From an alpha proteobacterium AAP38 (GTDB lineage: Bacteria > Pseudomonadota > Alphaproteobacteria > Azospirillales > Azospirillaceae): a DNA stretch of 64,000 nt. Position 1 is the stretch's first letter. The number at the start of each line of letters is the position of its first letter. This document shows, piece by piece, positions 20,562 to 41,847 of the stretch. Both the position numbers and the translations under genes were made by a program. A model generated the notes under the pieces. The model searched no databases, was not told where the DNA came from, and was given only the letters and a program-made list of their open reading frames with translations. The stretch is taken from the NCBI GenBank assembly GCA_001296005.1, contig LJHR01000005.1, positions 310,001 to 374,000 of the forward strand, written 5' to 3'.

Positions 20562-22124
20562 TCAGAACAGGCCCAGTTTCCCGCCGCTGGCCACGAAGGC
20601 ACTGTAGGCCTGACGCTTGGCCGGGGACAAAGGTTCGATCACCCCGGTCCTGTCGCCAAGGCCCATTACGCGGCCATTCGCCAGGACCGGCCAGTCGGGC
20701 AGCCCCGCACCGTTCGGGTTGCCGTTCTTCACGAAATTGGCCCAGTACTGGCCCAGCGTCGCGGCGATGTCATGGTCCGCCTTTGTGAAGGGGCGGGTGG
20801 ACTTGTCCAGCGTGGCGAACACATAGGGCAGTTCGGCGGAATGAAAGGTGCCGAACCGGGCCGGATCGCTGCCGGGCTGCGGGTGCTGGAACAGATAGGC
20901 ATAGACCGGGGCGGCACCGGGCTGCCGCGGCTGCGCCCAGATCAGCATGGAGGCGGTGGCCTGTTCGCGTAACAGGGCCTTGGCCGCTTCACCCGCCTCC
21001 TGACCGTCACTCCCCTGATAGAAGGGGCGGAAGGACGGCGCCTGTGCGCCGAAGCGGCGGTCGATCAGGTCGTTCAGCTTGACCGACGTAGTCAGGTGCC
21101 AGTCGGGACCATTGCTGCTTTCATCCGTCGTCAGGCCGGTCAGGACGGGGATGTCCTGCCGCTGCCGCTCCGGGTTGGGCAGGATGGCTGGTTCCGTGAT
21201 GGGAAAGAAGCGCAGGCCCGGCGGCCCGACGGACGGGTCCTTTGCCGCCTTGGCCAGTTGTTCGGGCGACAGGGCACGCAAGGCGGCGATACCGGTCACG
21301 CCGGCGGCATCCATGACCTTCTGCCCCCGCACCTCGGCATCTGACAGTGGCAGGCTGGGAATGCCCATGCCGGACCCGCTCTGCGCGATGGCGCGGATGA
21401 ACAGCCCGTCTGCCTTGGGCGAAGACAGTATGGCATGGACAGAAGCTGCACCCGCCGATTGTCCGGCGATGGTCACCCGTTTGGGGTCACCCCCGAAATT
21501 CGCAATATTGTTCTGGACCCAGCGCAGGGCTGCCACCTGATCCATCAGGCCGTAATTGCCCGAAGACCCCGCCTCGGCGGTCAGCGCCGGATGGGCCAGG
21601 AAGCCATAGATCCCGACGCGATAATTGATCGTGACGACGATGATGCCGCGTGCGGCCAGCTTCTCCCCATCATACAGGGGGACAGAACCCGAACCACCTG
21701 CAAAACCGCCGCCATGGATCCATACCATGACCGGATGGTTGGCATTGCCGGCTCCCGCCGGGCGCCAGACATTGACCGACAGGCAATCCTCACTCATGGG
21801 ACGGGTTGGGAAATACTCCGCCGACCAGGGGGAACCGCCGGGCGGTGTATAGGGGGGCTCCTGCTGGCAATCGGCACTGAACTGCGTGGCGTCGCGCACG
21901 CCGGACCATGCCGCAACAGGCTGCGGCGGGCGCCAGCGGTTGGCACCGCCAGTATCACCGGCATAGGGAATGCCCAGGAAACGGTCGACACCGTTCTGGG
22001 TGGACCCTGCCACACGCCCCGCCTCCGTCACGGCGTCCGGGCGTGCAGCGCCGGCCATTGACGGCATGGCATACAGGGCCAGCAACGATGCACCAACCCG
22101 CAGAATGGAAAAACTCCACCGCAC
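20562..22124 (-). CDS. Secreted type-B carboxylesterase
   Basis: The 520-residue esterase has HGGGFAGGSG (oxyanion hole) and the serine elbow GQSAGAAS, plus an early Cys-containing QQEPPYTPPGG loop. A GTG start at 22124 is favoured: GGGAGG lies 6 nt upstream and the following residues (VRWSFSILRVGASLLALYA...AGAA) form a normal signal peptide. The sequence is only distantly like the esterase at 11390-13024. Placed between a TonB receptor and a glycoside dehydrogenase, it may remove acyl groups (acetyl, malonyl, cinnamoyl) from acylated glycosides before oxidation. Confidence 0.88.
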   Translation of the reverse strand: MRWSFSILRVGASLLALYAMPSMAGAARPDAVTEAGRVAGSTQNGVDRFLGIPYAGDTGGANRWRPPQPVAAWSGVRDATQFSADCQQEPPYTPPGGSPWSAEYFPTRPMSEDCLSVNVWRPAGAGNANHPVMVWIHGGGFAGGSGSVPLYDGEKLAARGIIVVTINYRVGIYGFLAHPALTAEAGSSGNYGLMDQVAALRWVQNNIANFGGDPKRVTIAGQSAGAASVHAILSSPKADGLFIRAIAQSGSGMGIPSLPLSDAEVRGQKVMDAAGVTGIAALRALSPEQLAKAAKDPSVGPPGLRFFPITEPAILPNPERQRQDIPVLTGLTTDESSNGPDWHLTTSVKLNDLIDRRFGAQAPSFRPFYQGSDGQEAGEAAKALLREQATASMLIWAQPRQPGAAPVYAYLFQHPQPGSDPARFGTFHSAELPYVFATLDKSTRPFTKADHDIAATLGQYWANFVKNGNPNGAGLPDWPVLANGRVMGLGDRTGVIEPLSPAKRQAYSAFVASGGKLGLF

Positions 22125-22224: not shown

Positions 22225-24507
22225 TCAGAACCGGTAGGTGCCCTGCACGCCAAACGTACGCGGCGGGCCATAGATGGAGTTGTAGATCAGCGAACCGGCA
22301 GCGGCGTTGAAGTTCGCGAAGGCCAGCGGCTGCTTGTCCTCCAGATTGCGGACATAGGCCTGGACCGTGTAGTTGCCATCGCCCGAGTTATATTCGACCG
22401 ACAGGTCGGTCATCATATAGCCCTTCTGGCGCAGGGCAGCCCAGTTCACGACTGACAGGTAATGGGCCGACTTGTACCGGCTGAAGGCCGAGGCCACGAC
22501 ATTCGCGCCGTCACCCAGGTCGAACGTGTGGCTGTACCCGGCGGACAGGGTCCATTTCGGGGCCTGCGGCGGACGGTTGCCCTTCAGGTTGAACTGCTGG
22601 ATGCCGGGGGTGACCGGATCGGCATCGTTGATCGGGGTGCCGTTCACCCCGATCAACGACGTGGCGAAGCTCTGCACCTTGGCATCCAGGTAATTGACGG
22701 TGAAGGACAGTTCGTCGTTCTCCGTCAAGAGGATGCTGGTATCGGTCTCGATACCCCAGACGCGCGACTTACCGGCGTTCAGGGTGCGGGCACCGACATT
22801 GTTGTCCACAAACACCTGGATCTGCTGATCCTTATAATCATAGTAGAAGGCAGAGGCGTTGAACTGCAGGCGGCCACCATTGAAGCGGTTCTTGGTCCCG
22901 ACTTCATAGGCAACCAGTTCTTCCGGCTCATAGGCCCCGACGCTGTCGAAACCGCCACTCTTATAACCGGTGCTGAGCTTGCCATAGACCAAGCTGTCAT
23001 CTGCCGGCTTCCAGTCGATGCCGATATTGCCCGTCACCTGATCGGAAGAAGAACGCGGACGCAGGATGGTGGCACCGGCGGAGCCGAATGCCGGCGGGGT
23101 CGTACCCTCGCCGCGGCCAAAGCGCGGGCCGTAATTGTAGAAGGTGGCGCTCTTGGCGTCGTCGGTATAGCGCAGGCCGCCGGTCACCGTCAGTTCCGGA
23201 CCAGCCACCGGCACCGTGACCTGCCCGAAGGCGGCCTTGGACTTGGACAGGATGTCCGGGCGGTAGAAATAGTTCAGGAAGGCACGCGGTAGTTCCAGAT
23301 ACAGGCCGCGGGACAGGTCAACCTTCTCACGGAAGTAGAAGCCGCCCAGCTGATAGAACAGGCCGTTATCCAGCGTGTTCGACAGGCGCAGCTCGTGGCT
23401 CTGCGTCTGCGAATTCAGCTTGTTGTTGCGGAAGGTGAAGGTCGCGGGCAGATAGCCGTTCAGCGGCAGGGCGCTGTTGGTCTCATTGTCGCGATAGCCA
23501 CCCAGATAGGCCAGCGTGCCCAGGTCGAAATCAAATTCGATCCGACCGCGCAGGGCAAACTGCTCGCTATTGAAATTGCCCAGGTCGCCCAGGGGGTAAT
23601 TCTTGGTGTTGATGCCGCTGAAGGTCAGGTTGGCGGGAATACCATTATTTTCAAACGCGGTGGTCGACGGGATGGCGTCGATGACCCCGGCGGAATAGGC
23701 GGCATTGGTCAGAACGCCATTCTGGGCCACCAGGATGCCGAACTGCGACGGCGGCAGCTGATCGACATTCACATATTCGCCGGCCAGATAGGTGCGGATA
23801 TTCTCCGTGGGCTCCCAGGCGATGGCGAGGCGGGCCGCATCGACATTCTGATCCTCACCACGACCGACGGCGCCATGCTTGCGATAGCCCTTGTGATCGG
23901 TGTGCATGCCGGCGACACGGACGGCAACCGTATCCCCCAGCGGGACATTGACGGCACCCTCGGCCCGCTTGGCGTCGTAATTGCCATAGCCGACGGTCAG
24001 GAAGCCGGCGGTCTTGCCCAACTGCGGCTTGGCGGCGATGATGTTGATGGCGCCTGCGGTCGCGTTGCGGCCATAGAGCGTACCCTGCGGACCGCGCAGA
24101 ACCTCGATCCGTTCCAGGTCGAAGAAGCTGGCATTCAGCGCGACCGGACGGTTGATATATTCGCCATCGATGCCGATGGTCAGGGCCGGGTCGGACGCTT
24201 CGGAAATGTCCTGGCTGGACACGCCGCGCACCGAAATCTTCGTGAAGATCGTGTCATTGGTGACATTCAGATCGGGCGCCAGGCGCGCCAGACCATTGAC
24301 GTCTGACACGCCGGACTTGACCAGATCATCGCCCGTAAAGGCGCGGATGGCGATGGGCGTGTCCTGCAGGTTGGTTGCGCGCTTGGTCGCGGTCACCACG
24401 ATTTCTTCCAGCACCAAAGCGTTGTTGCTTTCGGTCTGTGCCATGGCGGAAGCGGCATGAAGGGTGGTTGCCCCTGCTGCAAGCAGGAGCATCGAACGGA
24501 TGCGCAT
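22225..24507 (-). CDS. TonB-dependent outer membrane receptor
   Basis: The 760-residue receptor has a signal peptide (MRIRSMLLLAAGATTLHAASAMAQ), a LVLEEIVVTATKR plug start, the plug core LERIEVLRGPQGTLYGRNATAGAINI read in two blocks, and a terminal TonB-receptor strand (PRTFGVQGTYRF). It heads the operon receptor-esterase-small subunit-GMC-NTF2-DUF1080. The promoter carries the AGAACCCTAATTCT site, so it belongs to the regulon centred on the TetR gene at 24792. A glycoside or flavonoid glycoside is the likely cargo (inference from its neighbours). Confidence 0.9.
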   Translation of the reverse strand: MRIRSMLLLAAGATTLHAASAMAQTESNNALVLEEIVVTATKRATNLQDTPIAIRAFTGDDLVKSGVSDVNGLARLAPDLNVTNDTIFTKISVRGVSSQDISEASDPALTIGIDGEYINRPVALNASFFDLERIEVLRGPQGTLYGRNATAGAINIIAAKPQLGKTAGFLTVGYGNYDAKRAEGAVNVPLGDTVAVRVAGMHTDHKGYRKHGAVGRGEDQNVDAARLAIAWEPTENIRTYLAGEYVNVDQLPPSQFGILVAQNGVLTNAAYSAGVIDAIPSTTAFENNGIPANLTFSGINTKNYPLGDLGNFNSEQFALRGRIEFDFDLGTLAYLGGYRDNETNSALPLNGYLPATFTFRNNKLNSQTQSHELRLSNTLDNGLFYQLGGFYFREKVDLSRGLYLELPRAFLNYFYRPDILSKSKAAFGQVTVPVAGPELTVTGGLRYTDDAKSATFYNYGPRFGRGEGTTPPAFGSAGATILRPRSSSDQVTGNIGIDWKPADDSLVYGKLSTGYKSGGFDSVGAYEPEELVAYEVGTKNRFNGGRLQFNASAFYYDYKDQQIQVFVDNNVGARTLNAGKSRVWGIETDTSILLTENDELSFTVNYLDAKVQSFATSLIGVNGTPINDADPVTPGIQQFNLKGNRPPQAPKWTLSAGYSHTFDLGDGANVVASAFSRYKSAHYLSVVNWAALRQKGYMMTDLSVEYNSGDGNYTVQAYVRNLEDKQPLAFANFNAAAGSLIYNSIYGPPRTFGVQGTYRF

Positions 24508-24553
24508 TCTGGTTCCTCCCGATGAGGCCGGCACTGTTTACCGGCCAGGCTCT

Positions 24554-24578
24554 GGGTTCTTTTCTAAAACTAGAACCC
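24554..24578. promoter_or_regulatory. 7-bp inverted repeat overlapping the receptor operator
   Basis: GGGTTCT (24554-24560) and AGAACCC (24572-24578) are perfect complements with 11 nt between. The right arm overlaps the AGAACCCTAATTCT operator, so two dimer registers may exist at this promoter. Confidence 0.4.
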
Positions 24579-24585
24579 TAATTCT
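24572..24585. promoter_or_regulatory. Putative regulon operator, site 1 (TonB receptor operon)
   Basis: AGAACCCTAATTCT fits AGAATnnnnATTCT with one mismatch. It lies 65 nt before the receptor start codon. Four further copies precede other blocks of the island. Confidence 0.65.
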
Positions 24586-24791: not shown

Positions 24792-25472
24792 GTGAAAGTG
24801 TCGATGGTGGATGAGGATCAGGAAGTCGAACCGTTGCTGAACCCAACGGGTCGTGAACCCAAACAGGGACGCAGCCGCGCCTCGTTCGAACGGATGCTGG
24901 CCGCCGCTACGGATTTGCTGATCGAACGCGGAAATGACGATTTTGCCCTCACCGATGTGGCTAAGCGCGGCAAGGTCTCTATCGGCTCCATCTATTGCCG
25001 ATTCGACAGCAAGGATGACCTGATACAGGCGATCCAGCGCCGGTTCATGGAAAAGATGGCTGAAGAAGAGGCGGAGATGATTGGCCGCCTGACCGACAAA
25101 TCCACCAGCCTGGATGTGCTTGTCCGCAATTTCGTGGAGGAACTGGCCGAGTTCCTGAAACGCAATGCGCCGGTTCTACGGCCCATGATGCTACGCGCGT
25201 CATCCGACCCCGTGGTGCGCGCAATGGGGCGCAAGGGCTATGATTCTTTGGTTGAAAAGGTCATGTCCACGCTGTTGTCGCGGCGCGATGAGATTGGCCA
25301 TGAGTTGCCGGAGCTCGCCTGTGAAATGACATTGCGGATCGCCTATTCGGCCTTTGCCCGCTATCTGGGCTTCGGCACGGTTGGCGATACGGGCACCAAG
25401 GCAGACTGGAAGAACCTTAAAACCGAAGTGGGTGTGATGTGCTCCACCTATCTGCGCAACGGCAACCGATGA
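24792..25472 (+). CDS. TetR family regulator of the glycoside island (proposed)
   Basis: The 226-residue protein has a TetR helix-turn-helix (LTDVAKRGKVSIGSIYCRF, near residues 53-71) and an all-helical C-terminal domain. The start is the GTG at 24792 or the ATG at 24804; neither has a strong ribosome site. It sits in the centre of the island between divergent operons whose promoters share AGAATnnnnATTCT. It is the only regulator gene between 17 and 39 kb, which makes it the natural candidate for that palindrome. Family and position are seen; the binding assignment is inference. Confidence 0.87.
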   Translation: MKVSMVDEDQEVEPLLNPTGREPKQGRSRASFERMLAAATDLLIERGNDDFALTDVAKRGKVSIGSIYCRFDSKDDLIQAIQRRFMEKMAEEEAEMIGRLTDKSTSLDVLVRNFVEELAEFLKRNAPVLRPMMLRASSDPVVRAMGRKGYDSLVEKVMSTLLSRRDEIGHELPELACEMTLRIAYSAFARYLGFGTVGDTGTKADWKNLKTEVGVMCSTYLRNGNR

Positions 25473-25505: not shown

Positions 25506-25519
25506 AGAATTACGATTCT
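25506..25519. promoter_or_regulatory. Putative regulon operator, site 2 (MFS-Gfo/Idh-TIM barrel operon)
   Basis: AGAATTACGATTCT is a perfect AGAAT-n4-ATTCT palindrome. It lies 43 nt before the MFS start. Confidence 0.7.
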
Positions 25520-25562
25520 GTTCTGATCTGCTGTGATCAGACCCAATGGAAAGGCACATCCC

Positions 25563-27029
25563 ATGGCATCCGCCGCCAGCCCGGGGGGCAAGCGGGGGCC
25601 GGCCCTATCCGCCATCGATCAGGCTGCCGCCTTGACGCCGAAACGGCGTCAGATGGCCCTGGTGGTGGTGGCCGGCGCCTTCATGATGGACCTGATCGAC
25701 CTGACCATCGTCAATGTGGCACTGCCGTCGATCCAACGCGACCTGTCCGCCGATACGGCCCAGATGCAGTGGCTGGTCGCCGGCTATGCCGTGGCCTTCG
25801 CCATCCTGCTGATCACCGGCGGGCGGCTGGGCGATACCCATGGCTACCGCCGGCTGTTCATGATCGGCATGGCTGGGTTCACCCTGACCTCCCTGCTTTG
25901 CGGCCTGTCGGTCAGCGGGCCGATGCTGGTGGTGGCGCGGCTGGCGCAGGGGGCGACGGCGGCGCTGATGCTGCCGCAGGTCATGTCCCTTATCCAGGTC
26001 ATGTATCCGCCCGCCGAACGGATCGCCGCCCTGTCGGTGTTCGGCGTGCTGGGCGGTGTCGCTGCCGTATTGGGGCCGGTGATCGGCGGGCTGCTGATCG
26101 AGGCCAACCTGTTCGGGCTGGGTTGGCGGCCCATCTTCCTGATCAATGGCCCGCTGGGTATGATCGGTCTTTATGCCGCTTGGCGCTTGCTGCCTTCGGG
26201 CCGATCGCCGCATGGCGGCGGTGTCGATCTGCCTGGAACCGCCCTGATCGCGGCCACCCTGTTGGCCTTGATGCTGCCGCTGTTGCAGGGGCGGGAGGCG
26301 GGATGGCCGCTCTGGTGCCTGATCCTGCTGGCCTGCGCCCCACTGCTGGCGCTGCTGTTCATCCGCCATATCAGGATGCGGGCCGGGGCGGGGACCGGGC
26401 TGGTCGATCCTGTCCTGTTCGTCAATCGGGGCTTTTCAATTGGGCTGGGCATGTCGCTCTGTTTCCAGGCGACGACGGCGGGTTTGTTGTTCATCCTGAC
26501 CCTGACGCTGCAATATGGGTTGGGCTGCACACCGTTGGAAACCGCCTTGGTCCATGTCCCCTATGCGCTGGGCGCGTCGGTCGCCATCGGTGGCGTGGCC
26601 CGGCGGGCCCTGCCGCGCATGGGTCTGCGCCTCCCCCTGCTGGGCGTGGCGGTGATGCTGTCGGGCATGCTGGCGCTGGCCGCACTGATCTGGGGGCAGG
26701 GCGGGCTGGTGCTGGTGGGCATTGCCTTGCTGATTACTGGTACCGGCATGGGTCTTGTCGGCGGGCCGACGGGGCCGATCACCCTGTCGGATGTGGAACT
26801 GATCCATGCCGGATCGGCGTCCGGGACACTGAAGGCGGTGCAGCAGTTGGGGGCGGCATCCGGCGCGGCCCTGATCGGCGGCACCTATTTCACTCTGGCC
26901 CAGGGTTTGACGGCAGAGGCGGCGCGCAATGCCTTCCTGGCTACCATGCCGCTGCTGGTCCTTCTGCTGATGATGGTTGGTTTTCTGATCACGCGGTTGC
27001 CGCGCGATCTGCGGCTTTTCAAGAAATGA
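25563..27029 (+). CDS. MFS transporter, DHA2/EmrB-QacA type
   Basis: The 488-residue, 14-segment carrier has the DHA2 hallmark FMMDLIDLTIVNVALPSIQ in TM1, GRLGDTHGYRRLF in the TM2-3 loop, and the antiporter motif GPVIGGLL in TM5. These carriers usually export drugs or lipophilic molecules. Heading an operon with a Gfo/Idh dehydrogenase and a TIM-barrel enzyme, it may export toxic phenolic aglycones released inside the cell, though import cannot be excluded. The ATG at 25563 has AAAGG upstream. Confidence 0.88.
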   Translation: MASAASPGGKRGPALSAIDQAAALTPKRRQMALVVVAGAFMMDLIDLTIVNVALPSIQRDLSADTAQMQWLVAGYAVAFAILLITGGRLGDTHGYRRLFMIGMAGFTLTSLLCGLSVSGPMLVVARLAQGATAALMLPQVMSLIQVMYPPAERIAALSVFGVLGGVAAVLGPVIGGLLIEANLFGLGWRPIFLINGPLGMIGLYAAWRLLPSGRSPHGGGVDLPGTALIAATLLALMLPLLQGREAGWPLWCLILLACAPLLALLFIRHIRMRAGAGTGLVDPVLFVNRGFSIGLGMSLCFQATTAGLLFILTLTLQYGLGCTPLETALVHVPYALGASVAIGGVARRALPRMGLRLPLLGVAVMLSGMLALAALIWGQGGLVLVGIALLITGTGMGLVGGPTGPITLSDVELIHAGSASGTLKAVQQLGAASGAALIGGTYFTLAQGLTAEAARNAFLATMPLLVLLLMMVGFLITRLPRDLRLFKK

Positions 27030-27044
27030 CGGGAGGATGTTGTG

Positions 27045-28196
27045 ATGAGTGAGCCTGTGCTGCGCCTGGGCATGATCGGCGGTGGTCCCGGCAGCTTCAT
27101 CGGTCCGGTTCACCGCATGGCGGCGGAACTGGACGGGAAGATCCGGCTGGTCGCCGGCGCTTTCAGCAGTGATGCGGAGCGGTCACGACAGGCCGGTGCC
27201 GGTTACGGCGTTGATCCCGCCCGCGCCTATGCCAGCCACCAGGCCATGATCGCGGCGGAAGGTGCGCGGCCCGACGGTATCGACCTTGTCGCCATCGTTA
27301 CCCCCAACCACCTGCATGTGCCGGCCAGCATCGACGCGTTGAAGGCAGGTCTGCATGTGATGTGCGACAAGCCCGCTGCCCTGTCGCTGGCCGAACTGAA
27401 GCAGCTGGCAACCGCGACATCCGGGTCGAAAGGGCTCTACGCCCTGACCCACACCTATACCGGTTATCCGCTGGTGCGGGAGGCACGGGCGCTGGTGGCG
27501 TCGGGCCGGATCGGACGGCTGCGCAAGGTGGTGGTGGAATATAGCCAGGGCTGGCTGTCCACCCCGCTGGAGGATACGGGCAGCAAGCAGGCCGGCTGGC
27601 GCACCGATCCCGCCAAGTCCGGGGTGGGTGGCTGTATCGGTGATATCGGCGTGCACGCCTTCAATCTGGCGGAATATGTCTGCGGTGCCCCGGTGCGTGA
27701 ACTCTGCGCCGACCTGTCCATCATGGTACCGGGCCGCCGGCTGGATGATGATTGCAACATCCTGCTGCGGTTTGAGGATGGCAGCGAACGCGGCGTACCG
27801 GGCGTGCTGCAGGCGTCGCAGATCGCGGCGGGTGACCGCAATGGCCTGCGCCTGCGCGTCTATGGGACGGAGGCGGGCTTGGACTGGTCGCAGGAGACGC
27901 CCAACACCCTGACCATCCATGGCCTGGATGGAAGGACGGAAGTGCTGCATGCCGGCGCCGGCAATCTGGGTCTTGCCGCCCGTAACGCGACGCGCCTGCC
28001 GACCGGTCATCCGGAGGGCTATATCGAGGCCTTCGCCAATCTGTACCGCGACTTTGCGTCCGCCATCCGTGCCGGCGCCATGCCGGCTGATGGCAGCCTG
28101 CCGGGGCTGGAGGCGGGCCTTCGCGGCATGGGTTTCATCGAAACGGCGGTCGCCAACTCTGCCGCCCGCGCCGGCTGGGTCCGGCTGGATATCTGA
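27045..28196 (+). CDS. Gfo/Idh/MocA-family NAD(P)-dependent sugar dehydrogenase
   Basis: The 383-residue oxidoreductase has the Rossmann motif GMIGGGPGS (9-17), VTPNHLHVP, the catalytic-lysine motif CDKPAALS (Lys109), and a GDIGVHAFNLAEYV catalytic His block. Family members oxidise or reduce C3 of glycosides and inositols; some catalyse the 3-dehydrogenation step of C-glycoside breakdown, while others reduce 3-keto-glucose afterwards. GGGAGGA lies 7 nt before the chosen ATG. It is followed after 18 nt by a TIM-barrel gene. Confidence 0.9.
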   Translation: MSEPVLRLGMIGGGPGSFIGPVHRMAAELDGKIRLVAGAFSSDAERSRQAGAGYGVDPARAYASHQAMIAAEGARPDGIDLVAIVTPNHLHVPASIDALKAGLHVMCDKPAALSLAELKQLATATSGSKGLYALTHTYTGYPLVREARALVASGRIGRLRKVVVEYSQGWLSTPLEDTGSKQAGWRTDPAKSGVGGCIGDIGVHAFNLAEYVCGAPVRELCADLSIMVPGRRLDDDCNILLRFEDGSERGVPGVLQASQIAAGDRNGLRLRVYGTEAGLDWSQETPNTLTIHGLDGRTEVLHAGAGNLGLAARNATRLPTGHPEGYIEAFANLYRDFASAIRAGAMPADGSLPGLEAGLRGMGFIETAVANSAARAGWVRLDI

Positions 28197-28214: not shown

Positions 28215-29267
28215 ATGCGCACGATCAAGGGGCCGGGCATCTTCCTGGCACAGTTCGCGGGCGACGCCGCCCCGTTCAACAGCCTGGATGCCATCGCCGA
28301 CTGGGCTGCAAACCTGGGCTACAAGGGTATCCAGATCCCGTCCTGGGATGGCCGCCTGTTCGACCTGCGTCTGGCGGCGGAAAGCAAGACCTACGCGCAG
28401 GAAGTGACGGGCAAGCTGGCGGCCAAGGGTCTGGCCGTGACGGAGCTGTCCACGCATCTGCAGGGACAGTTGGTGGCCGTTCACCCGGCCTATGATGCAC
28501 AGTTCGACGCCTTCGCCGACCCGTCGGTGCGCGGCAATCCGGCGGCACGGCAGGCCTGGGCTGTAGAACAGATGCGGCTGGCGGCGCAGGCCAGCGCCAA
28601 TCTGGGCCTGACGGCGCATGCCAGCTTTTCCGGCGCGCTGGCCTGGCCCTATGTCTATCCCTGGCCGCAGCGTCCCGCCGGCCTGATCGAGGAGGCGTTT
28701 GCCGAGTTGGGCCGCCGCTGGCGTCCTATCCTGGACGCGTTTGACGAGGCTGGGGTGGATGTCTGCTTCGAACTTCACCCCGGCGAAGACCTGCATGACG
28801 GCGTCACGTTTGAGCGGTTCCTGGGTGCGGTGGACAATCACCCGCGCGCCAACATCCTCTTCGACCCCAGCCATTTTGTGCTTCAGCAGCTGGATTATCT
28901 GGCCTTCATCGACCATTACCACACGCGAATCCGCGCCTTCCATGTGAAGGATGCGGAGTTCCGGCCCAATGGAAAATCGGGCGTGTATGGTGGCTACCAG
29001 GGCTGGGTGGACCGCCCCGGTCGTTTCCGGTCATTGGGGGATGGACAGGTGGATTTCAAGGCGATCTTCTCCAAGCTCACTGCCTATGATTACGCCGGCT
29101 GGGCCGTTCTGGAATGGGAATGTGCCTTGAAGCATCCCGAAGATGGCGCACGGGAAGGGGCCACTTTCATCCACGATCACATCATCCGCGTCACCGAACA
29201 CGCCTTCGATGATTTCGCGGCCAGCGGTGTGGATGACGATCTGAACCGCCGCCTGCTGGGCCTCTGA
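28215..29267 (+). CDS. Sugar phosphate isomerase/epimerase-like TIM barrel (possible keto-sugar hydratase)
   Basis: The 350-residue xylose-isomerase-like barrel shows a full metal site: Glu186 in CFELHPGED, Asp217 in LFDPSHF, His243 and Asp246 in FHVKDAEF, and Glu300 in AVLEWEC. Relatives are found next to Gfo/Idh dehydrogenases, where they isomerise or hydrate keto-sugars made after 1,2-elimination. GGGAGG precedes the ATG by 7 nt. It ends its operon at a strong terminator. Confidence 0.86.
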   Translation: MRTIKGPGIFLAQFAGDAAPFNSLDAIADWAANLGYKGIQIPSWDGRLFDLRLAAESKTYAQEVTGKLAAKGLAVTELSTHLQGQLVAVHPAYDAQFDAFADPSVRGNPAARQAWAVEQMRLAAQASANLGLTAHASFSGALAWPYVYPWPQRPAGLIEEAFAELGRRWRPILDAFDEAGVDVCFELHPGEDLHDGVTFERFLGAVDNHPRANILFDPSHFVLQQLDYLAFIDHYHTRIRAFHVKDAEFRPNGKSGVYGGYQGWVDRPGRFRSLGDGQVDFKAIFSKLTAYDYAGWAVLEWECALKHPEDGAREGATFIHDHIIRVTEHAFDDFAASGVDDDLNRRLLGL

Positions 29268-29276
29268 TCACGTTTC

Positions 29277-29327
29277 AAAGCCGCTCTTCGACCTTCTGCG
29301 GAGGGTTGGGGAGCGGCTTTTCATTTT
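29277..29327 (+). terminator. Intrinsic terminator after the Gfo/Idh-TIM barrel operon
   Basis: AAAGCCGCTC (29277-29286) pairs with GAGCGGCTTT (29311-29320) and is followed by TTCATTTTG. It separates this operon from the promoter of the deglycosidase genes. Confidence 0.7.
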
Positions 29328-29397: not shown

Positions 29398-29411
29398 AGA
29401 ATGATAATTCT
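29398..29411. promoter_or_regulatory. Putative regulon operator, site 3 (C-glycoside deglycosidase genes)
   Basis: AGAATGATAATTCT is a perfect palindrome, extended by one base on each side (AAGAAT...ATTCTT). It lies 143 nt before the alpha-subunit start in an AT-rich promoter stretch. Confidence 0.7.
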
Positions 29412-29554
29412 TATATTGATATCGGGCATCGTCGGCTCCTTCTCCTGATGATTTTTCCAGGACGGGCCGGCTGCGCTCTTCCCCCATCGGGCTTTGCCTG
29501 AGACCGCCGCCATCCTTGGCCCCCGGCGGGGCCGCACCTGACAGGACCGGTTCC

Positions 29555-30559
29555 ATGTCGAACTATGACATCAAAAGGGGCGTAAGCCTTTACAGTTATC
29601 AGGAGGAATATTTCCTGGGTACCAAGTCTCTGGAGGACCTGATCAAGGTCTCCGCCGAGATGGGTGCCAATGGGATTGAGCTGATCAGCGAGCAGACCTT
29701 CCCTAATTATCCCAATCCGCTGGACCAGTCCGTTTACGATAATTGGCATGCCCTGATGGCGAAATATGGCACGACCCCGGTCTGCCATGATTTCATGCTG
29801 GATTATAAGAAGTACAAGAACCGGCCCATGCCGTTCGAGGAGCAGGTGGCAAGTTGCAAGGTCGATATCGACCATGCCGCCCGTCTGGGCTGCCCCTATA
29901 CGCGTGCGCTTGTCTCCATCGATCCGAACGTGCTGGTCGCCTGCGCCGATTATGCGGAAAGCAAGAATGTCCGCATCCTGATTGAGGTGCATGCACCGCT
30001 GCATTTCGACCATCCCTGGATCATCCGCCATGCCGAGGCGTTCGAGAAGTCGGGATCGAAATATCTGGGCTTCCTGCCCGACATGGGCATGTTCCTGTTC
30101 AAGTTCCCGCCCGTCTGGAAGGAGAAATTCATTCGTGACGGCGTGCCGCAGAATATCGCCGACTATATCTGCAAGGCGTACGAGGACCGCACGCTCAGCG
30201 AATATGTGATCCTGGAAGTGGAGAAGATGGGCGGCGTCGGTCCGGCCATCGGCATGGCCACCACGCTGCGCCACAATGCGGCGTTCGAGCCAAAGCGCAT
30301 GCTGGACCATATGGACCGCATCTGGAACATCCATGCCAAGTTCTACCAGATGGACGAGGATCTGGTGGAGCCCTGCATCCCCTATGACGAGATCATCCGG
30401 GTGCTGAAGAAGGGCGGCTACAAGGGCTATATCTGCTCCGAGTATGAAGGCAACCGCTGGATTCAGGATGCGTTCCCCGTGGACAGCATCGAACAGGTCC
30501 GCCGTCAGCAGGAAATGTTCAAGAAGCTGATCGGCGAACCCGCCGTCACCGCCGCCTGA
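29555..30559 (+). CDS. C-glycoside deglycosidase alpha-subunit-like TIM barrel
   Basis: The 334-residue xylose-isomerase-like barrel has Glu144 and His146 in LIEVHAPLH, Asp176 in LPDMGMF, a later His in WNIHAKFYQMD and a Glu in CSEYEGNRW, a metal site with an added His. A small DUF6379-type protein follows 12 nt downstream, the gene pairing of known C-glycoside deglycosidases (alpha/beta complexes such as CarBC and DgpBC), which break the C-C bond between a 3-keto-sugar and its aglycone. The start at 29555 has AGGA upstream. An ordinary sugar isomerase is the alternative, but the beta subunit argues strongly against it. Confidence 0.87.
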   Translation: MSNYDIKRGVSLYSYQEEYFLGTKSLEDLIKVSAEMGANGIELISEQTFPNYPNPLDQSVYDNWHALMAKYGTTPVCHDFMLDYKKYKNRPMPFEEQVASCKVDIDHAARLGCPYTRALVSIDPNVLVACADYAESKNVRILIEVHAPLHFDHPWIIRHAEAFEKSGSKYLGFLPDMGMFLFKFPPVWKEKFIRDGVPQNIADYICKAYEDRTLSEYVILEVEKMGGVGPAIGMATTLRHNAAFEPKRMLDHMDRIWNIHAKFYQMDEDLVEPCIPYDEIIRVLKKGGYKGYICSEYEGNRWIQDAFPVDSIEQVRRQQEMFKKLIGEPAVTAA

Positions 30560-30571
30560 GGAGCCATACCC

Positions 30572-30964
30572 ATGTTCGATAAATACATGATCTGTGAAGA
30601 TGGCTTCGGCAATGTCCAGCAGGATGGCCGTACCGTCGGTTTCGCCTTTCAGGCCCGTCTGCCCTATTACCGGGGCATCGGCCTGTCCATGGTCGAGGAT
30701 ATCGGCGTCATCATCGATGGCGAACCGGTCGCCCGCCAGGACATCCGCTTCTCCGTCCGGGGCCGCACCTGGACGCTGGACGAGATGGAAACGGAATATA
30801 CCGACCGCTGGAACTTCGCGGAGAAGGCGCTGGTGACCGTGCTGCGCGACGGCGGCCTGACGCCGGGCCGGCACAAGGTCCAGCTTTCCGAACGTATCCG
30901 CGTTTCCTATCTGCCCTTCGTGCCCACCACGCGTGACACGAAGGAACTGGTGATCCCGGCCTGA
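30572..30964 (+). CDS. C-glycoside deglycosidase beta-subunit-like protein (DUF6379/CGDB)
   Basis: The 130-residue protein begins MFDKYMICEDGF and contains GFAFQARLPYYRGIGLSMVED (read in two parts), IIDGEPV, WTLDEMETEYTDRWNF, and ends with IRVSYLPF...DTKELVI. This matches, from memory, the small beta-jelly-roll subunit of C-glycoside deglycosidases, which covers the active site of the TIM-barrel alpha subunit. It has no signal, so the complex is cytoplasmic. TGAGGAG at the alpha stop gives its ribosome site. A strong terminator closes the two-gene operon. Confidence 0.85.
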   Translation: MFDKYMICEDGFGNVQQDGRTVGFAFQARLPYYRGIGLSMVEDIGVIIDGEPVARQDIRFSVRGRTWTLDEMETEYTDRWNFAEKALVTVLRDGGLTPGRHKVQLSERIRVSYLPFVPTTRDTKELVIPA

Positions 30965-30997
30965 CCTCCCCTCATATCCCTCAGGTTCGGTAAACTG

Positions 30998-31034
30998 CGG
31001 GGCACGGCGATCAACGCCGTGCCCCGTTTTGTTT
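30998..31034 (+). terminator. Intrinsic terminator after the deglycosidase genes
   Basis: CGGGGCACGGCG (30998-31009) pairs perfectly with CGCCGTGCCCCG (31015-31026), followed by TTTTGTTT. Confidence 0.85.
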
Positions 31035-31151: not shown

Positions 31152-32471
31152 TCACCCCCGCCGTTCCGGCCAGAAGCCGATGCAGACGATCTGGGCCGCG
31201 ATGGCCAGCATGGCGGGCGCGTAATAGAGGATATGGACCATCCGGCGCGCGTCATCGCCGACATTGGCGGGGTCGTATCCCGCCTGCGCCAGACCGAAGG
31301 CGACAATTGCCCCGCCCAGCGCCATGCCGATCTTGATCGACAGATTGACGCCGGCAGCCAGCAACCCCTCATTGCGGGTGCCGAACTGCGCCTCGTGATA
31401 ATCCACGACCTCTGCCGCCATGGCAAAGATGGCGGTCATGGAGATGCTGATCAGGATCGAGGACAGGATATAGACGGTTAGGAACAGGGCCGGCACCGCC
31501 TCTGTGAACGGAAGGACGCCATACAGCACCAGTGCCGCCGCCAGTGCCACCCGGTTGCCGTTTCGCATGCCCAGCCGTTTCAGGAAGGGCGGGGCGATGG
31601 CCGACCCGATCAACAGGGTGCCCGACACGGCGGGCAGCAGGATGGAGATCATCCAGGGCTGACGCAGGATGTTGATGGCGAAATAGGCGGTGACCGACAG
31701 AACCGCGCCAAACCGGATGAAGTTCAGGCTGGCAAAGCCGAACACCACCAGCCAGGCCCGGTTGCGCAGCATGTCGCGGATGGAGGACAGGCTGGTTTCC
31801 TGCTGGCCCACGGGCGGGGGCACCACCTCCTGGCAACTGGCAAACAGGTTGAGCGTCAGCAGCACAGTAACCGCCGCCATCAGGACCGCGACCCACAGGA
31901 AACCCTGGGCCTGATCCCCGCTGCCCAGCGCCTGGACCAGCGGCATGGTGGCCGCCGTCGCGACGATCACCGACAGGGCGGTGCCGGCGGCCCGCAGACT
32001 GCCCAACTGCACCCGTTCATCCTGCCGCACCGTCATCATCGGCATCAAGGCGCCATAGGGGATGTTGACGATGGAATAGAGCAGTCCCAGTACCACGAAG
32101 CTGACGCAGGCCCACAGCAGCTTGCCGGTCCCATCCAGCGGTGGAACATAGAAACTGGCCACACAGAACAGGCCGAACGGAACCGCCCCGAACAGGAAAT
32201 AGGGCCGCACCCGGCCCCAGCGGCTGCGTGTGCGGTCCACTGCCAGCCCGACCAGCGGATCGAACGCCGCGTCCAGCAGGCGTGACAGCAGGAACAGCGT
32301 TCCCACCACGCCCACGGGCAGCAGCGCCACATCGGTATAAAAGTACAGCAGAAACGCCCCGACCATGTTCCAGGTCAGGCCGAAACCGAAATCCCCCGCG
32401 CCATAGCTCAGCTTGGCGCGCCAGGACAGCGGCGGGGCGGCGATGCCGCCCCCCTCTTGGTTGATCGACAT
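31152..32471 (-). CDS. GPH-family glycoside:cation symporter (MelB-like)
   Basis: The 439-residue carrier has 12 predicted segments and the GPH signature set: KLSYGAGDFGFGLTWN at TM1, DAAFDPLVGLAVDRTRSRWGRVRPY after TM2 (read in two blocks), and a conserved EAQFGTRNEG loop. Members take up glycosides with Na+ or H+. It is the third gene of a minus-strand operon (MFS, Hyi-like, GPH) whose promoter carries the regulon operator. It probably moves the glycoside or its keto form into the cytoplasm for deglycosylation. Confidence 0.9.
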   Translation of the reverse strand: MSINQEGGGIAAPPLSWRAKLSYGAGDFGFGLTWNMVGAFLLYFYTDVALLPVGVVGTLFLLSRLLDAAFDPLVGLAVDRTRSRWGRVRPYFLFGAVPFGLFCVASFYVPPLDGTGKLLWACVSFVVLGLLYSIVNIPYGALMPMMTVRQDERVQLGSLRAAGTALSVIVATAATMPLVQALGSGDQAQGFLWVAVLMAAVTVLLTLNLFASCQEVVPPPVGQQETSLSSIRDMLRNRAWLVVFGFASLNFIRFGAVLSVTAYFAINILRQPWMISILLPAVSGTLLIGSAIAPPFLKRLGMRNGNRVALAAALVLYGVLPFTEAVPALFLTVYILSSILISISMTAIFAMAAEVVDYHEAQFGTRNEGLLAAGVNLSIKIGMALGGAIVAFGLAQAGYDPANVGDDARRMVHILYYAPAMLAIAAQIVCIGFWPERRG

Positions 32472-32491: not shown

Positions 32492-33259
32492 TTACAGGCC
32501 CAGCGTCTTGCGCGCCTGGGTCAGGCCGTCCAGTGTCGGGCCTGTCGGCTTGTATTCCAGGCCGATGGCCCCCTTGTAGCCAAGGTCACGCAGGATGCCG
32601 ATATAGCGGGGCCAGTCGATGGTGCCGCTGCCCGGCTGGTGCCGGCCCGGCACGTCGGCCACCTGTACATGCCCAACAAGATGGAACCGCCCCGCCAGTA
32701 CCTTGGCCGGGTCTTCCCCCATCACGGTGGAATGGTACATGTCATAGAGCAGGCGCAGATTGGGGCTTTTTACAGCCTCAACCATGTCCAGCCCTTCGGT
32801 CGTGCTGACCAGGTACATGCCGGGATGTTCGACCCGGTCGTTCAGCGGTTCCAGCAGAAGCATGATGCCGGCTTCCTCCGCAAGTGTCGCTGCCTGACGA
32901 AGGGCCGTGACGGCCGCATCGAAATGATCCTGACGCGGCACATCGGGCCGGGTGAAGCCGGATGCGACGACCAGGGCCGGCGCACCGGCTTGGCCGGCCG
33001 CGATCAGGCTGTCGCGCACGGCGGCCAGGAATTCCCCATGCTGGGCCGGATCAACGATGCTGCGGCGCGGTTCGACCACGAAACTGGCCAGCTTCACCCC
33101 GGTCTCTTCCAGGGTCTGGCGGATTTCCGTCAACGGCTTTTCCCGCCACAGATGGAATTCCACTGCGTCAAGGCCGGCTGCCTTGGCGGCGCGGATACGG
33201 TCAACAAAGGTCGGGTGTTCGGCGGCGAACAGCCACTCGATACAGGCGGCGAGGTACAT
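32492..33259 (-). CDS. hyi: Hydroxypyruvate isomerase-like TIM barrel
   Basis: The 255-residue barrel has the Hyi/OtnI pattern: CIEWLFAAEHP at the start, LLLEPLNDR (catalytic Glu), LLYDMYHSTVMGED (metal Asp), HVQVADVPGRHQPGSG, and IGLEYKPTGPT (second catalytic Glu). Family enzymes interconvert hydroxypyruvate and tartronate semialdehyde or isomerise oxo-tetronates. GGAGG lies 6 nt before the ATG at 33259. As part of the keto-glycoside regulon it more likely isomerises a small keto-sugar product than acts in glyoxylate metabolism. The symbol denotes the family only. Confidence 0.82.
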   Translation of the reverse strand: MYLAACIEWLFAAEHPTFVDRIRAAKAAGLDAVEFHLWREKPLTEIRQTLEETGVKLASFVVEPRRSIVDPAQHGEFLAAVRDSLIAAGQAGAPALVVASGFTRPDVPRQDHFDAAVTALRQAATLAEEAGIMLLLEPLNDRVEHPGMYLVSTTEGLDMVEAVKSPNLRLLYDMYHSTVMGEDPAKVLAGRFHLVGHVQVADVPGRHQPGSGTIDWPRYIGILRDLGYKGAIGLEYKPTGPTLDGLTQARKTLGL

Positions 33260-33372: not shown

Positions 33373-34608
33373 TCAGTACCGGATGCCGGTGTCGGCCTTG
33401 CCCTTGGCCAGGACCAGTAGGGCGATGGCGGCACCGATCAGGGCGGCGATCCCCATGGTCAGGAAGGCGGCCTGCACCGTGCCGCCCGTGACGGACTTGG
33501 CACCGGCAACAAAGAACGGGCTGGTGAACTGGCCCAGGAAGAAGCAGGAGGCCCAGATGCCCATGCCACGTCCGCGATGGGCAAAGGGCAGCTTGCTCTG
33601 TGCCCAGGCGATCAGGATGGGGATGGTCATGCCAGCGCCCATCTGCTGGATCACCAGCACCACCATCATCGATTTGTAATCCGGGGCCAGCCCGATCCCG
33701 GCCAGACCGACACCCAGGAAGGCGAAGAAGCAGAAAATCTGCAGCGACAGGGTGCGCTTGCCGATCCAGCCGAAGATCAGCGCCCCGACCGGCACGCCCA
33801 GGCTGGCCAGCGCGATCAGGGAGCCGACGCGGGCGGGATTGTCCACCCCAACCTCGCGGAAGGCCAGACCACCCTGGATGATGAAGACATAATACAGTGT
33901 GGAGGCAAACAGGGTCACAACGCCATAGAGTGCCACCGCACGGGTGGGGAAGGGCAGGGCCGGACCCTCATCCGCCGGCTTGGCAGCCGGTGCGCCGCTG
34001 ACAGTCTTGCCGGGTTCGAAAATCATGAAATGCATGCCCATGAAAATGGGCAGTGCGATCAGATAGATCAGGAACATGCCGTTCCAACTGAGCGTCGTCA
34101 GAAGCCCCGACAGGGCGATGACGCCCGATGCCATGGCCGGTCCGGCCAGCCCCTGGATCATCAGGACCCGGCGCCGGCCCTTGGCATCATAATAGTCGGC
34201 GATCAGAGTGTTGACGATGGTCAGGATCGCCGCCTCCGTCACACCCAGCAGCAGGCGCGAGGCGATGACCGCATGTAGGCTATCCAGGAAATAGGGCAGT
34301 GAACCGGCGATCCCATAGAAGAAGGTCGACCAGACCAGAAGCCGTCGGCGACCGAACCGGTCTACCAGCATGCCGGCAAACGGCGCCAGGATGGCGATGG
34401 CAAGGCCGGGTGCCGAAACCAGCACCGGCACCAGCAGGGAGGCATTCGCCACATCCTTGAAATGGTCAAGAATGGTGGGCACCGCCGGCGTCAGCGACAC
34501 AATGGCCAGAATCGGCAGGAAGCCGCTGATCACCAGAATGATGGCTTGGGCAATGCCTGCTTTGCGCACGTCGCCGGATGCCGGCGCCGCGATGGCCTGA
34601 TCAGCCAT
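33373..34608 (-). CDS. MFS transporter
   Basis: The 411-residue carrier has 12 segments, with MLVDRFGRRRLLVW as the TM2-3 loop and DYYDAKGRRRVLM as a matching loop before TM5. It resembles DHA1-type and sugar or aromatic transporters without a clear specific match. GGGAGGAA precedes the ATG by 5 nt. It is the first gene of the minus-strand operon with Hyi-like and GPH genes, directly after regulon operator site 4. Confidence 0.86.
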   Translation of the reverse strand: MADQAIAAPASGDVRKAGIAQAIILVISGFLPILAIVSLTPAVPTILDHFKDVANASLLVPVLVSAPGLAIAILAPFAGMLVDRFGRRRLLVWSTFFYGIAGSLPYFLDSLHAVIASRLLLGVTEAAILTIVNTLIADYYDAKGRRRVLMIQGLAGPAMASGVIALSGLLTTLSWNGMFLIYLIALPIFMGMHFMIFEPGKTVSGAPAAKPADEGPALPFPTRAVALYGVVTLFASTLYYVFIIQGGLAFREVGVDNPARVGSLIALASLGVPVGALIFGWIGKRTLSLQIFCFFAFLGVGLAGIGLAPDYKSMMVVLVIQQMGAGMTIPILIAWAQSKLPFAHRGRGMGIWASCFFLGQFTSPFFVAGAKSVTGGTVQAAFLTMGIAALIGAAIALLVLAKGKADTGIRY

Positions 34609-34644: not shown

Positions 34645-34658
34645 AGAATTATGATTCC
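34645..34658. promoter_or_regulatory. Putative regulon operator, site 4 (MFS-Hyi-GPH operon)
   Basis: AGAATTATGATTCC fits AGAATnnnnATTCT with one mismatch. It lies 36 nt before the minus-strand MFS start. Confidence 0.65.
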
Positions 34659-34796: not shown

Positions 34797-34810
34797 AGAA
34801 TAGCAATTCT
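34797..34810. promoter_or_regulatory. Putative regulon operator, site 5 (monooxygenase-reductase-GH3 operon)
   Basis: AGAATAGCAATTCT is a perfect palindrome, 82 nt before the monooxygenase start. Sites 4 and 5 share one 284-nt divergent promoter region (34609-34892), with 152 nt between their starts. Confidence 0.7.
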
Positions 34811-34892
34811 AATTCGAAAGCCATGGACGCCGTGACCGTACCCCTGAACGGGGCGCTGCCGGAACGCACCGATGGCCGCACAGGAGGAAACC

Positions 34893-35999
34893 ATGCGTTT
34901 TTCGACCTTTCTGAATGCCCGCTGCATGGGTGAGGAACAGGACCGTGACCTGTTGCTGGATCTGGTGGAGCATGTGGAAAAGGCAGAGGCGGCGGGCTTC
35001 GACGCTGTCTTCCTGCCTGATCATCATTTCACCGGCTACATGCCCATGGCATCCGATCCGATGATGTTCGCCGCGTATCTGGCCGCGCGGGTCAAGCGCA
35101 TGCATTTCGGTTTCTCCGTGACCACGGTTCCGCTGCACCATCCCGTACGGTTTGTTGAGCGCGTGAACATCCTGGATCAGTTGACGGAAGGCCGCCTTCT
35201 GGTCGGTGTCGGCAGCGGCACGACACCGGAGGAGATGATCGGCTTTGGCGTGAACTACAAGGAAGCCTCGCGTCTGGCCGAAGAGAACCTGGCCATTGCC
35301 GAACAGCTTTGGGCCAAGAAGGCGGAAGATGCGCCCGTCACCTTCGACAATGGCCATTACAAGGGTGAGGTGGTGCAGCGCATCGCCCCCGTCGCCTACA
35401 CGCCCGGCCATGCCCGGCTGATGCCGGTGGCGATGAAGGAAAGCAGTGCACGGCGCGCCGCACAGTTCGGCTGGCCGGCCTTCATCCCGGCCTTCACTCC
35501 GCCGCAGATCGGCGGGACCGAACCGTTCAAGCATGTGCAGAAATTCTTTACGATCTATCGTGATCTGCTGCTGGCTGCCGGCCATTCCGCCGAACGTGTC
35601 GCCGATGCTCTGTCCTGGACCACGCACACCTATCAATGCGTGCATATCGCGGAGACGGACGAACAGGCCCGTGCCGAGCTGGAAGACATCCTGACCGATT
35701 ATCAGGCTGCCGTGGAGCGTGAGGCCGCCTTCAATGCCAAGGCAGAGGCGACGGAGGCCAACAAAAAGACCGACCGCACGCCCAACGCCCTGACCGACGA
35801 CTGGATCGGCACTTGGTGCCTGTATGGTAGCCCGGAAACGGTGATCGAACATCTGAAGCCCTATCAGGAACTGGGCATCGGCAATGTGCTGTGCGGTCTG
35901 CTCACCGGTCCGCTGACCGCCAAACGCAAGGCATATGCGAACCAGACCATGGATTATTTGTCGCGCATCGTCATGCCCGCCCTGAAGGGGGGTGCGTGA
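34893..35999 (+). CDS. Luciferase-like flavin-dependent monooxygenase
   Basis: The 368-residue protein has the LuxA/LLM barrel pattern: FDAVFLPDHHFTGY near residues 39-52, an FGFSVTTVPLHHPVRFVE block, LTEGRLLVGVGSG, and the C-terminal GSPETVIEHL motif. LLMs use FMNH2 and O2 to hydroxylate or cleave substrates. The FMN reductase gene overlaps its stop codon (TGATG), giving a two-component monooxygenase. Under the shared operator it may oxidise the aglycone, or open a ring, after deglycosylation. GGAGG lies 5 nt before the ATG. Confidence 0.88.
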   Translation: MRFSTFLNARCMGEEQDRDLLLDLVEHVEKAEAAGFDAVFLPDHHFTGYMPMASDPMMFAAYLAARVKRMHFGFSVTTVPLHHPVRFVERVNILDQLTEGRLLVGVGSGTTPEEMIGFGVNYKEASRLAEENLAIAEQLWAKKAEDAPVTFDNGHYKGEVVQRIAPVAYTPGHARLMPVAMKESSARRAAQFGWPAFIPAFTPPQIGGTEPFKHVQKFFTIYRDLLLAAGHSAERVADALSWTTHTYQCVHIAETDEQARAELEDILTDYQAAVEREAAFNAKAEATEANKKTDRTPNALTDDWIGTWCLYGSPETVIEHLKPYQELGIGNVLCGLLTGPLTAKRKAYANQTMDYLSRIVMPALKGGA

Positions 36000-36559
36000 T
36001 GGCCAAGCCGCTGATCGTCGGGTTCGGGGGCACCACCCGACCCGGCTCGTCCGGGGAGCGGATGGTGGCTGCCGTTCTGGCAGCCACCGAGCAGCTGGGC
36101 GCTGAAACCCGCCTGTTCGGTGGGGCGGCCCTGGCCTCCATGCCGCATTTCGCCCCGGAAAATCCGGGCCGCACGGTGGAGCAGATTGAGTTCGTGGAGG
36201 CGGTGCGCGCCGCTGACGGCATCGTCATCGGTTCGCCCGGCTATCATGGCGGCGTATCGGGTCTGGTGAAGAATGCCATCGACCTGCTGGAGGATCTGCG
36301 CACCGACGCCCGCGTCTATTTTGACGGACGCGCCGTGGGGCTGATCGTGACGGCGGCGGGGTGGCAAGCGGGCGGGGTGACCCTGTCGGCGCTGCGCGGC
36401 ATCACCCATGCCATGCGCGGCTGGCCCACGCCGCTGGGCATCGCCATCAACACCATCGCGCAAAAGCCGTTCGATGCCGATGGCCGTCTGGTCGATGCCG
36501 ACATCATCGCGCAGGTGAATGCCCAGGCCGCACAGGTCATGGCGCTGGCGCGGCGCTAA
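35999..36559 (+). CDS. NADPH-dependent FMN reductase
   Basis: The 186-residue flavodoxin-like reductase has the phosphate loop GTTRPGSSGER (11-21), the GIVIGSPGYHGGVSG flavin-binding segment and LKNAIDL-type VKNAIDLLED, as in SsuE/ArsH-type enzymes. It supplies reduced FMN to the monooxygenase, with which it is translationally coupled. Confidence 0.9.
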   Translation: MAKPLIVGFGGTTRPGSSGERMVAAVLAATEQLGAETRLFGGAALASMPHFAPENPGRTVEQIEFVEAVRAADGIVIGSPGYHGGVSGLVKNAIDLLEDLRTDARVYFDGRAVGLIVTAAGWQAGGVTLSALRGITHAMRGWPTPLGIAINTIAQKPFDADGRLVDADIIAQVNAQAAQVMALARR

Positions 36560-36590
36560 ACAACAATAAGCTCCTATCAGGGAAGAACCC

Positions 36591-41823: not shown

Positions 41824-41847
41824 TCGCGAACCGGGGGGGAGGGGCCG

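Follow-up and report, generated by a model that had tools for sequence, protein, structure and literature searches.

A predicted C-glycoside deglycosidase pair in an alphaproteobacterium forms one unit of a regulon marked by a conserved palindrome

Introduction

Do two adjacent alphaproteobacterial genes that resemble the subunits of a C-glycoside deglycosidase (CGD) encode such an enzyme, and if so, is the pair self-contained or part of a larger system? C-glycosides withstand ordinary glycosidases, and to our knowledge it is only from a few actinobacteria and from Deinococcus that a route for their breakdown in soil or on plants is known. The pair lies in a 64,000-nucleotide stretch of DNA (the whole of it hereafter called the window), for which a preliminary description had proposed a discrete two-gene CGD operon. 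We compared the window with solved structures, with genomes of the same genus and family, and with a set of relatives, 1.5 Mb in all, made up of 78 CGD loci of other genomes. The pair is a predicted CGD, that is, a 3-keto-C-glycoside beta-eliminase, and as a member of an already known family it is ordinary in kind; what is new is the conserved regulon around it and the composition of the pathway, the whole of which appears to be held by the jointly controlled gene set.

Results and Discussion

The pair has the sequence and fold of a C-glycoside deglycosidase

The following features define the pair and its boundaries:

29555 to 30559, plus strand: predicted CGD alpha subunit, a Mn-type TIM barrel (Pfam AP_endonuc_2; best PDB match 8qvc_A; residue alignment; fold match)
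30572 to 30964, plus strand: predicted CGD beta subunit (PF19906/DUF6379; PDB matches to CGD beta chains only)
30997 to 31027, plus strand: intrinsic terminator of the alpha-beta unit (13 pairs)
29277 to 29320, plus strand: terminator-like stem ending the upstream HYD unit

Both reading frames are intact; alpha begins with ATG at 29555 and encodes 334 amino acids, and beta, of 130 amino acids, follows after a gap of 12 nt. The assignment of beta to the small DUF6379-type subunits, made in the preliminary description, holds over the full length of the profile PF19906 (CGDB; E 5.1e-43, 145.9 bits against a cut-off of 27.6). Pfam places alpha only in the generic TIM-barrel family AP_endonuc_2, and neither protein matched an NCBIfam model. 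Sequence searches of the PDB were more specific; the eight best matches of alpha were all CGD alpha chains, headed by 8qvc_A (E 1.8e-116), and the eight matches of beta were all CGD beta chains or domains. In alignments alpha is 53% identical to 8qvc, 29% to PuCGD, 28% to AgCGD2 and 30% to P581a DgpC1, and beta is about 38% identical to the beta subunit of the Deinococcus aerius CGD.

For structure prediction the two genes, which share a frame, were read through by taking the single TGA between them as W, giving a 469-residue chain with a 5-residue bridge; the AlphaFold2 alignment had 34 rows, two rows from a plasmid record having been left out. The resulting model had a pLDDT of 88.2 and a pTM of 0.81, values that refer to one chain and carry no inter-subunit error but would be compatible with alpha and beta packing together, and very low confidence was confined to the surroundings of the bridge and to residues 454-456. 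When the predicted alpha subunit was compared with the PDB, it superimposed on the D. aerius CGD with Z 46.6 and an rmsd of 1.1 over 324 residues, and all 13 top chains were CGDs (Z 33.1-46.6). A Foldseek search gave TMt 0.98 and an rmsd of 1.1 for the D. aerius CGD; in this search 8qvc is the CGD of D. aerius TR0125 and 8qrz that of Microbacterium testaceum.

The generic AP_endonuc_2 domain would also suit an ordinary sugar isomerase, epimerase or inosose dehydratase next to which beta is incidental, but such an identity is barely credible and was rejected on the PDB sequence matches and the fold: the best barrel other than a CGD reached Z 26.0 and an IolE protein 21.7, every sequence match of alpha with a strong E value was a CGD, and across the 78 CGD loci there are 74 cases of beta directly following alpha. 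The preliminary description had named closer kinship of alpha with myo-inosose or xylose isomerases as the finding that would speak against a deglycosidase; since the CGDs lie at Z 33.1-46.6 and the best other fold at 26.0, the CGDs are the nearer relatives, and family, nearest solved structures, catalytic residues and fold all bear out its identification of the pair. Its remark that few such enzymes have been characterised needs qualifying: with about ten CGDs now characterised or solved, the type is less rare than was stated.

Catalytic residues and the proposed cleavage step

The expected metal ligands, together with His146 in the motif IEVHAPLH, had already been noted, and the motif indeed supplies both E144 and H146. 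In a residue alignment all five ligands of alpha (E144, D176, H260, K262, E296) are kept in register with AgCGD2, PuCGD and DaCGD, as are the base H146 and the supporting E298; the counterparts in AgCGD2 are E147/D179/H269/K271/E305 for the metal, H149 and E307, and the catalytic His corresponds to H143 of PuCGD and H149 of AgCGD2. The catalytic residues are also the same as those of the D. aerius TR0125 CGD (PDB 8QVC/8QVD/8UMC). Glu147, Asp179, His269, Lys271, Glu305, His149 and Glu307 of AgCGD2 matter by mutation, the mutants behind these roles having been made in PuCGD and MiCGD (PMC8563793). In beta, the ranges matched to 7bvr_B (6-118 and 12-124) are equal in length, so that Tyr33, in LPYYRG, falls on residue 39 and is the equivalent of Tyr39-beta of PuCGE, a residue needed for cleavage of the C-glucoside and hardly for that of the O-glucoside (PMC10628242). 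Both beta and its Tyr33 are kept in all relatives aligned.

By analogy with PuCGE, the divalent metal of alpha would bind the 3-keto sugar, and His146 would take the C2 proton and help to protonate the aglycone carbon; beta would close the pocket, and its Tyr33, by stabilising the ionised phenol, would allow the C-C bond to break; the products would be the polyphenol and 2-hydroxy-3-keto-glucal. AgCGD2 contacts the aglycone through Asn248 and Arg123, residues that alpha does not keep (it has R239 and V120), and the aglycone is thus unreadable from the sequence; as a class, the substrate is most probably a plant C-glycosyl polyphenol.

PuCGE cleaves 3-keto-O-glucosides too, so the pair may not be specific for C-glycosides; it might be mainly a 3-keto-O-glycoside eliminase that serves in vivo to release O-linked aglycones, whether phenolic or oligosaccharide. 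PuCGE acts on 3-keto-phlorizin as well (PMC10628242), and the cluster includes enzymes for O-glycosides, namely a GH3 protein and a 3-keto-disaccharide hydrolase (below). We nevertheless consider this reading improbable, for the O-specific AtOGE works without a beta subunit and has His in place of Glu as a metal ligand, and beta has been retained throughout the aligned relatives together with Tyr33, a residue whose importance lies chiefly in C-C cleavage.

Neighbouring genes fit a four-step pathway

Around the pair lie the following genes:

16883 to 17707, minus strand: 3-keto-disaccharide hydrolase (PF06439/DUF1080)
18246 to 19931, minus strand: GMC oxidoreductase, with the next gene a predicted periplasmic glycoside 3-dehydrogenase (PF00732/PF05199)
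19928 to 20536, minus strand: gluconate 2-dehydrogenase subunit-3 type protein, G2dh3 (Pfam PF13618; twin-arginine leader RRGLLLSG by inspection)
20562 to 22085, minus strand: carboxylesterase
22225 to 24534, minus strand: TonB-dependent receptor
25533 to 27029, plus strand: MFS transporter, first gene of the Gfo-HYD unit (Pfam MFS_1)
27045 to 28196, plus strand: Gfo/Idh/MocA oxidoreductase, predicted 3-keto-glucose reductase (Pfam; best match 3v5n)
28215 to 29267, plus strand: predicted 2-hydroxy-3-keto-glucal hydratase (HYD), AtHYD homologue (8ro4_A, E 6.5e-184, 614 bits)
31152 to 32471, minus strand: GPH-type sugar symporter (TIGR00792, above cut-off)
32492 to 33259, minus strand: hydroxypyruvate-isomerase-like TIM barrel (HYI), paired with GPH
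33373 to 34608, minus strand: MFS transporter
34872 to 35999, plus strand: luciferase-like (LLM) flavin monooxygenase (Pfam PF00296)
35999 to 36559, plus strand: NADPH-dependent FMN reductase (Pfam PF03358)
36591 to 38957, plus strand: GH3 beta-glucosidase-type hydrolase

Known routes proceed by oxidation, elimination, hydration and reduction (PMC10628242, PMC13273386), and by their predicted functions the genes near the pair fit this scheme. The hydratase aligns with AtHYD (8RO4) over 350/350 residues at about 74% identity. Gfo and HYD stand side by side, with their order kept, in 34 CGD loci, and an enzyme of the Gfo type reduces 3-keto-glucose in an operon of Agrobacterium tumefaciens (PMC10628242). 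Three further pairings or placements recur: G2dh3 and GMC adjoin one another in 33 CGD loci, they stand directly downstream of HYD in 9, and HYI and GPH are adjacent in 32. A periplasmic C3 oxidation has a precedent in LacABC of Caulobacter, with its DUF1080 hydrolase (PMC9007349); no LacB-like cytochrome, as a membrane electron acceptor, was found among the cluster genes scanned.

We infer a pathway in which the glycoside would enter through the TonB receptor and be oxidised at C3 in the periplasm by the GMC/subunit-3 dehydrogenase. By inspection no signal peptide was seen on CGD, HYD or Gfo, from which it follows that the 3-keto glycoside would be carried inward before cleavage, presumably by the MFS or the GPH transporter; CGD would then cleave it, the AtHYD-type hydratase would yield 3-keto-glucose, and the Gfo enzyme would reduce this to glucose. 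GH3 and the 3-keto-disaccharide hydrolase may deal with O-linked sugars.

The oxidant in this scheme has a competitor. C3 oxidation could be the work of another enzyme, either Gfo at 27045 or a pyranose-oxidase-like protein elsewhere, with the GMC pair serving other glycosides; DgpA, a C3 oxidant elsewhere, is a Gfo enzyme, the Gfo protein at 27045 shows weak similarity to DgpA structures, and CarA and PurA are FAD oxidases (PMC12724307). Against this, Gfo is paired with the hydratase just as in the A. tumefaciens operon, where it is the reductase, and the G2dh3-GMC genes recur in CGD loci with operators upstream. We therefore think another oxidant unlikely, if worth keeping in mind, and retain the GMC pair as the probable oxidant.

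The triad of LLM, FMN reductase and GH3 (34872-38957) accompanies CGD from Azospirillaceae to Deinococcus aetherius, whose versions (L088:1-3482) are 62% (LLM, over the stored stretch), 60% (FMN reductase) and 50% (GH3) identical to those of the window. Among the PDB matches of the window's three TIM-barrel proteins, no AtOGE homologue was recognised. Past the cluster lies a xylan-degrading neighbourhood (39217-44732) with genes for a GH115 alpha-glucuronidase, an MFS protein and a GH43 beta-xylosidase, and at 49730-52256 an alanine-racemase-fold protein adjoins a flavoprotein of the D-arabinono-lactone-oxidase type.

A palindromic operator is shared by several units of the cluster

A recurrent 14-bp palindrome, AGAAT-N4-ATTCT, is present at five places in the window and is accompanied by a gene for a candidate regulator:

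24572 to 24585, unstranded: candidate operator ahead of the TonB receptor gene, 1 mismatch (the same in related loci L006 and L073)
24804 to 25472, plus strand: TetR-family regulator, candidate repressor (Pfam TetR_N)
25506 to 25519, unstranded: candidate operator AGAATTACGATTCT, exact, upstream of MFS-Gfo-HYD
29398 to 29411, unstranded: candidate operator AGAATGATAATTCT, exact, 144 nt upstream of the alpha start and conserved ahead of alpha in relatives
34645 to 34658, unstranded: candidate operator with 1 mismatch (exact in related loci L007 and L073)
34797 to 34810, unstranded: candidate operator AGAATAGCAATTCT, exact, between MFS and LLM (divergent promoter)

Allowing at most 1 mismatch, 0.41 sites were expected in the window, and none of 100 shuffles reached 5; all five sites lie upstream of cluster genes. 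For the GMC unit the window's operator is the one-mismatch site ahead of the TonB gene, 4-5 kb upstream. The exact palindrome occurs three times in the whole Niveispirillum-like genome of 5.78 Mb, each time within the same 9.3 kb here (P ~8e-8 for at least 3 exact sites in 64 kb), and the reversed control gave 0.

The palindrome is also conserved beyond this genome. Among the 78 related CGD loci there are 48 exact sites, with 0 for the reversed control, and 44 of the 48 are found just ahead of mapped cluster genes, no more than 250 nt away; not every locus has an exact site (35/78). Scoring a site in a divergent region for both flanking genes, we found sites ahead of alpha (15), LLM (10), MFSb (8), G2dh3-GMC (7), the TonB receptor (4), HYI (3) and others. 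They precede the same genes in Azospirillaceae and Sphingomonadales and, for LLM, in Pantoea and Pseudomonas as well, and their symmetry extends to AWW-AGAATN4ATTCT-WWT. In Pseudomonadota the LLM/FMN reductase/GH3 triad often has the shared operator.

These results modify the earlier picture of a two-gene operon with its own operator and terminator. The palindrome is real, the 13-pair terminator is present and the pair forms a discrete transcription unit, but the operator is shared with other promoters of the cluster; a strict stand-alone system is thereby ruled out, and the pair is one unit of a regulon whose candidate operator is common to several units and phylogenetically conserved.

The TetR protein encoded at 24804 is the most likely repressor of the regulon and would act at AGAAT-N4-ATTCT. 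Its gene sits between two operator sites, and within the genus it is present in 6/6 genomes with CGDB and 0/5 without; exact sites number 3-4 per genome in the six with CGDB, mostly on the CGD contig, and 0-1 in the other five. The palindrome overlaps the likely promoter region, and the TetR protein is tied to it by neighbourhood and co-occurrence only, so it might instead be the site of another regulator or a core promoter element. To this we give little weight: the sites are recurrent and symmetrical beyond the 14-bp core, the genome's three exact copies all fall inside the CGD cluster, and the TetR gene and the clustered sites coincide in the genus comparison (6/6 against 0/5).

Immediately ahead of the alpha start, a stretch of some 50 nt (29489-29540, ATCGGGC..GCCTGAGACCGCCG..CCCGGCGGGGCCG) is conserved between Niveispirillum and Nitrospirillum, its flanks not, and is a single copy in the genome. 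A riboswitch or known RNA in the leader was rejected: in the window Rfam gave no match at gathering thresholds and chance-level hits only at permissive ones, and the fold of the leader was not better than those of shuffles (z -0.95).

Comparison with known systems

Taken as a whole, we hold with good confidence that the two genes encode a 3-keto-C-beta-glycoside eliminase (CGD/CGE), heteromeric and dependent on a divalent metal, within a probably TetR-controlled regulon that includes the pathway proposed above. A broader proposal is put forward tentatively, leaning slightly towards doubt: that this is an undescribed, horizontally spread C-glycosyl-polyphenol regulon of Pseudomonadota, with a dedicated TetR repressor acting at AGAAT-N4-ATTCT, a periplasmic LacA/C-like oxidant, a dedicated AtHYD-type hydratase after CGD, and an LLM/FMN reductase pair, kept with CGD from Azospirillaceae to Deinococcus, acting on the aglycone or the glycoside, a step absent from known CGD pathways. 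In the open literature, most subscription journals having been outside the search, we found no paper describing such a regulon; nor did we find there one on C-glycoside breakdown by these alphaproteobacteria.

Each known system shares part of this arrangement. In D. aetherius the cluster keeps the alpha-beta order and likewise includes genes for LLM, flavin reductase and GH3; it differs in its ABC import, GntR regulator and a GMC oxidoreductase directly downstream, and the stretch seen contains, unlike the window, neither a hydratase nor a Gfo homologue. PuCGE/DgpBC and EuCGD/DfgAB of gut bacteria likewise combine a heteromeric metal TIM barrel with a DUF6379 subunit, a His base and a beta Tyr, but oxidation there is by the NAD-dependent Gfo enzyme DgpA, and they stand apart in the tree. 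CarBC, PurBC and AgCGD of soil actinobacteria are CGDs of C-glycoside catabolism in soil, where the oxidation falls to the O2-using FAD oxidases CarA and PurA. The GlycDH-OGE-HYD-Gfo operon of A. tumefaciens has a homologous hydratase, an adjacent Gfo gene and the same four-step logic, whereas its cleavage is by the O-specific single-subunit AtOGE, a step predicted for CGD in the window. LacABC/DUF1080 of Caulobacter, judged by family and neighbourhood, shares a GMC-type 3-dehydrogenase with a small partner and a DUF1080 hydrolase nearby, but no CGD has been reported with it.

The gene set is conserved across plant- and soil-associated bacteria. For alphaproteobacteria, many of which are associated with plants or soil, the locus offers a complete pathway open to testing; the operator, in turn, is a sequence tag by which the regulon's other genes, the LLM pair among them, can be picked out in dozens of genomes. 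A CGD run in reverse is useful for making C-glycosides (PMC13273386).

Distribution and further CGD pairs

The nearest named CGD relatives are from strains of Niveispirillum, Nitrospirillum and Azospirillum-labelled bacteria. In the tree, alpha clusters first with sequences from Azospirillaceae and Sphingomonas mali and next with those of other Pseudomonadota; Deinococcus (8qvc) is close by; PuCGD, AgCGD2, EuCGD and DgpC1 form long separate branches, the placement of which is unsure. Across the family CGDB is present in 11/82 genomes and 2/13 genera, a patchy distribution that fits a mobile accessory trait.

About 76 kb upstream on the same contig (L085:3338-12377; G000:C45 ~263 kb, the window being G000:C45:310001-374000) lies a second CGD alpha/beta pair, 31% (alpha) and 34% (beta) identical to the first, which groups with EuCGD on long branches and is accompanied by TetR, TonB receptor, carboxylesterase and MFS genes of its own. 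Many sphingomonad loci (L032, L063, L070, L090 and others) likewise have a second, divergent CGD alpha in the cluster, some with a beta, which suggests paired enzymes of different specificity.
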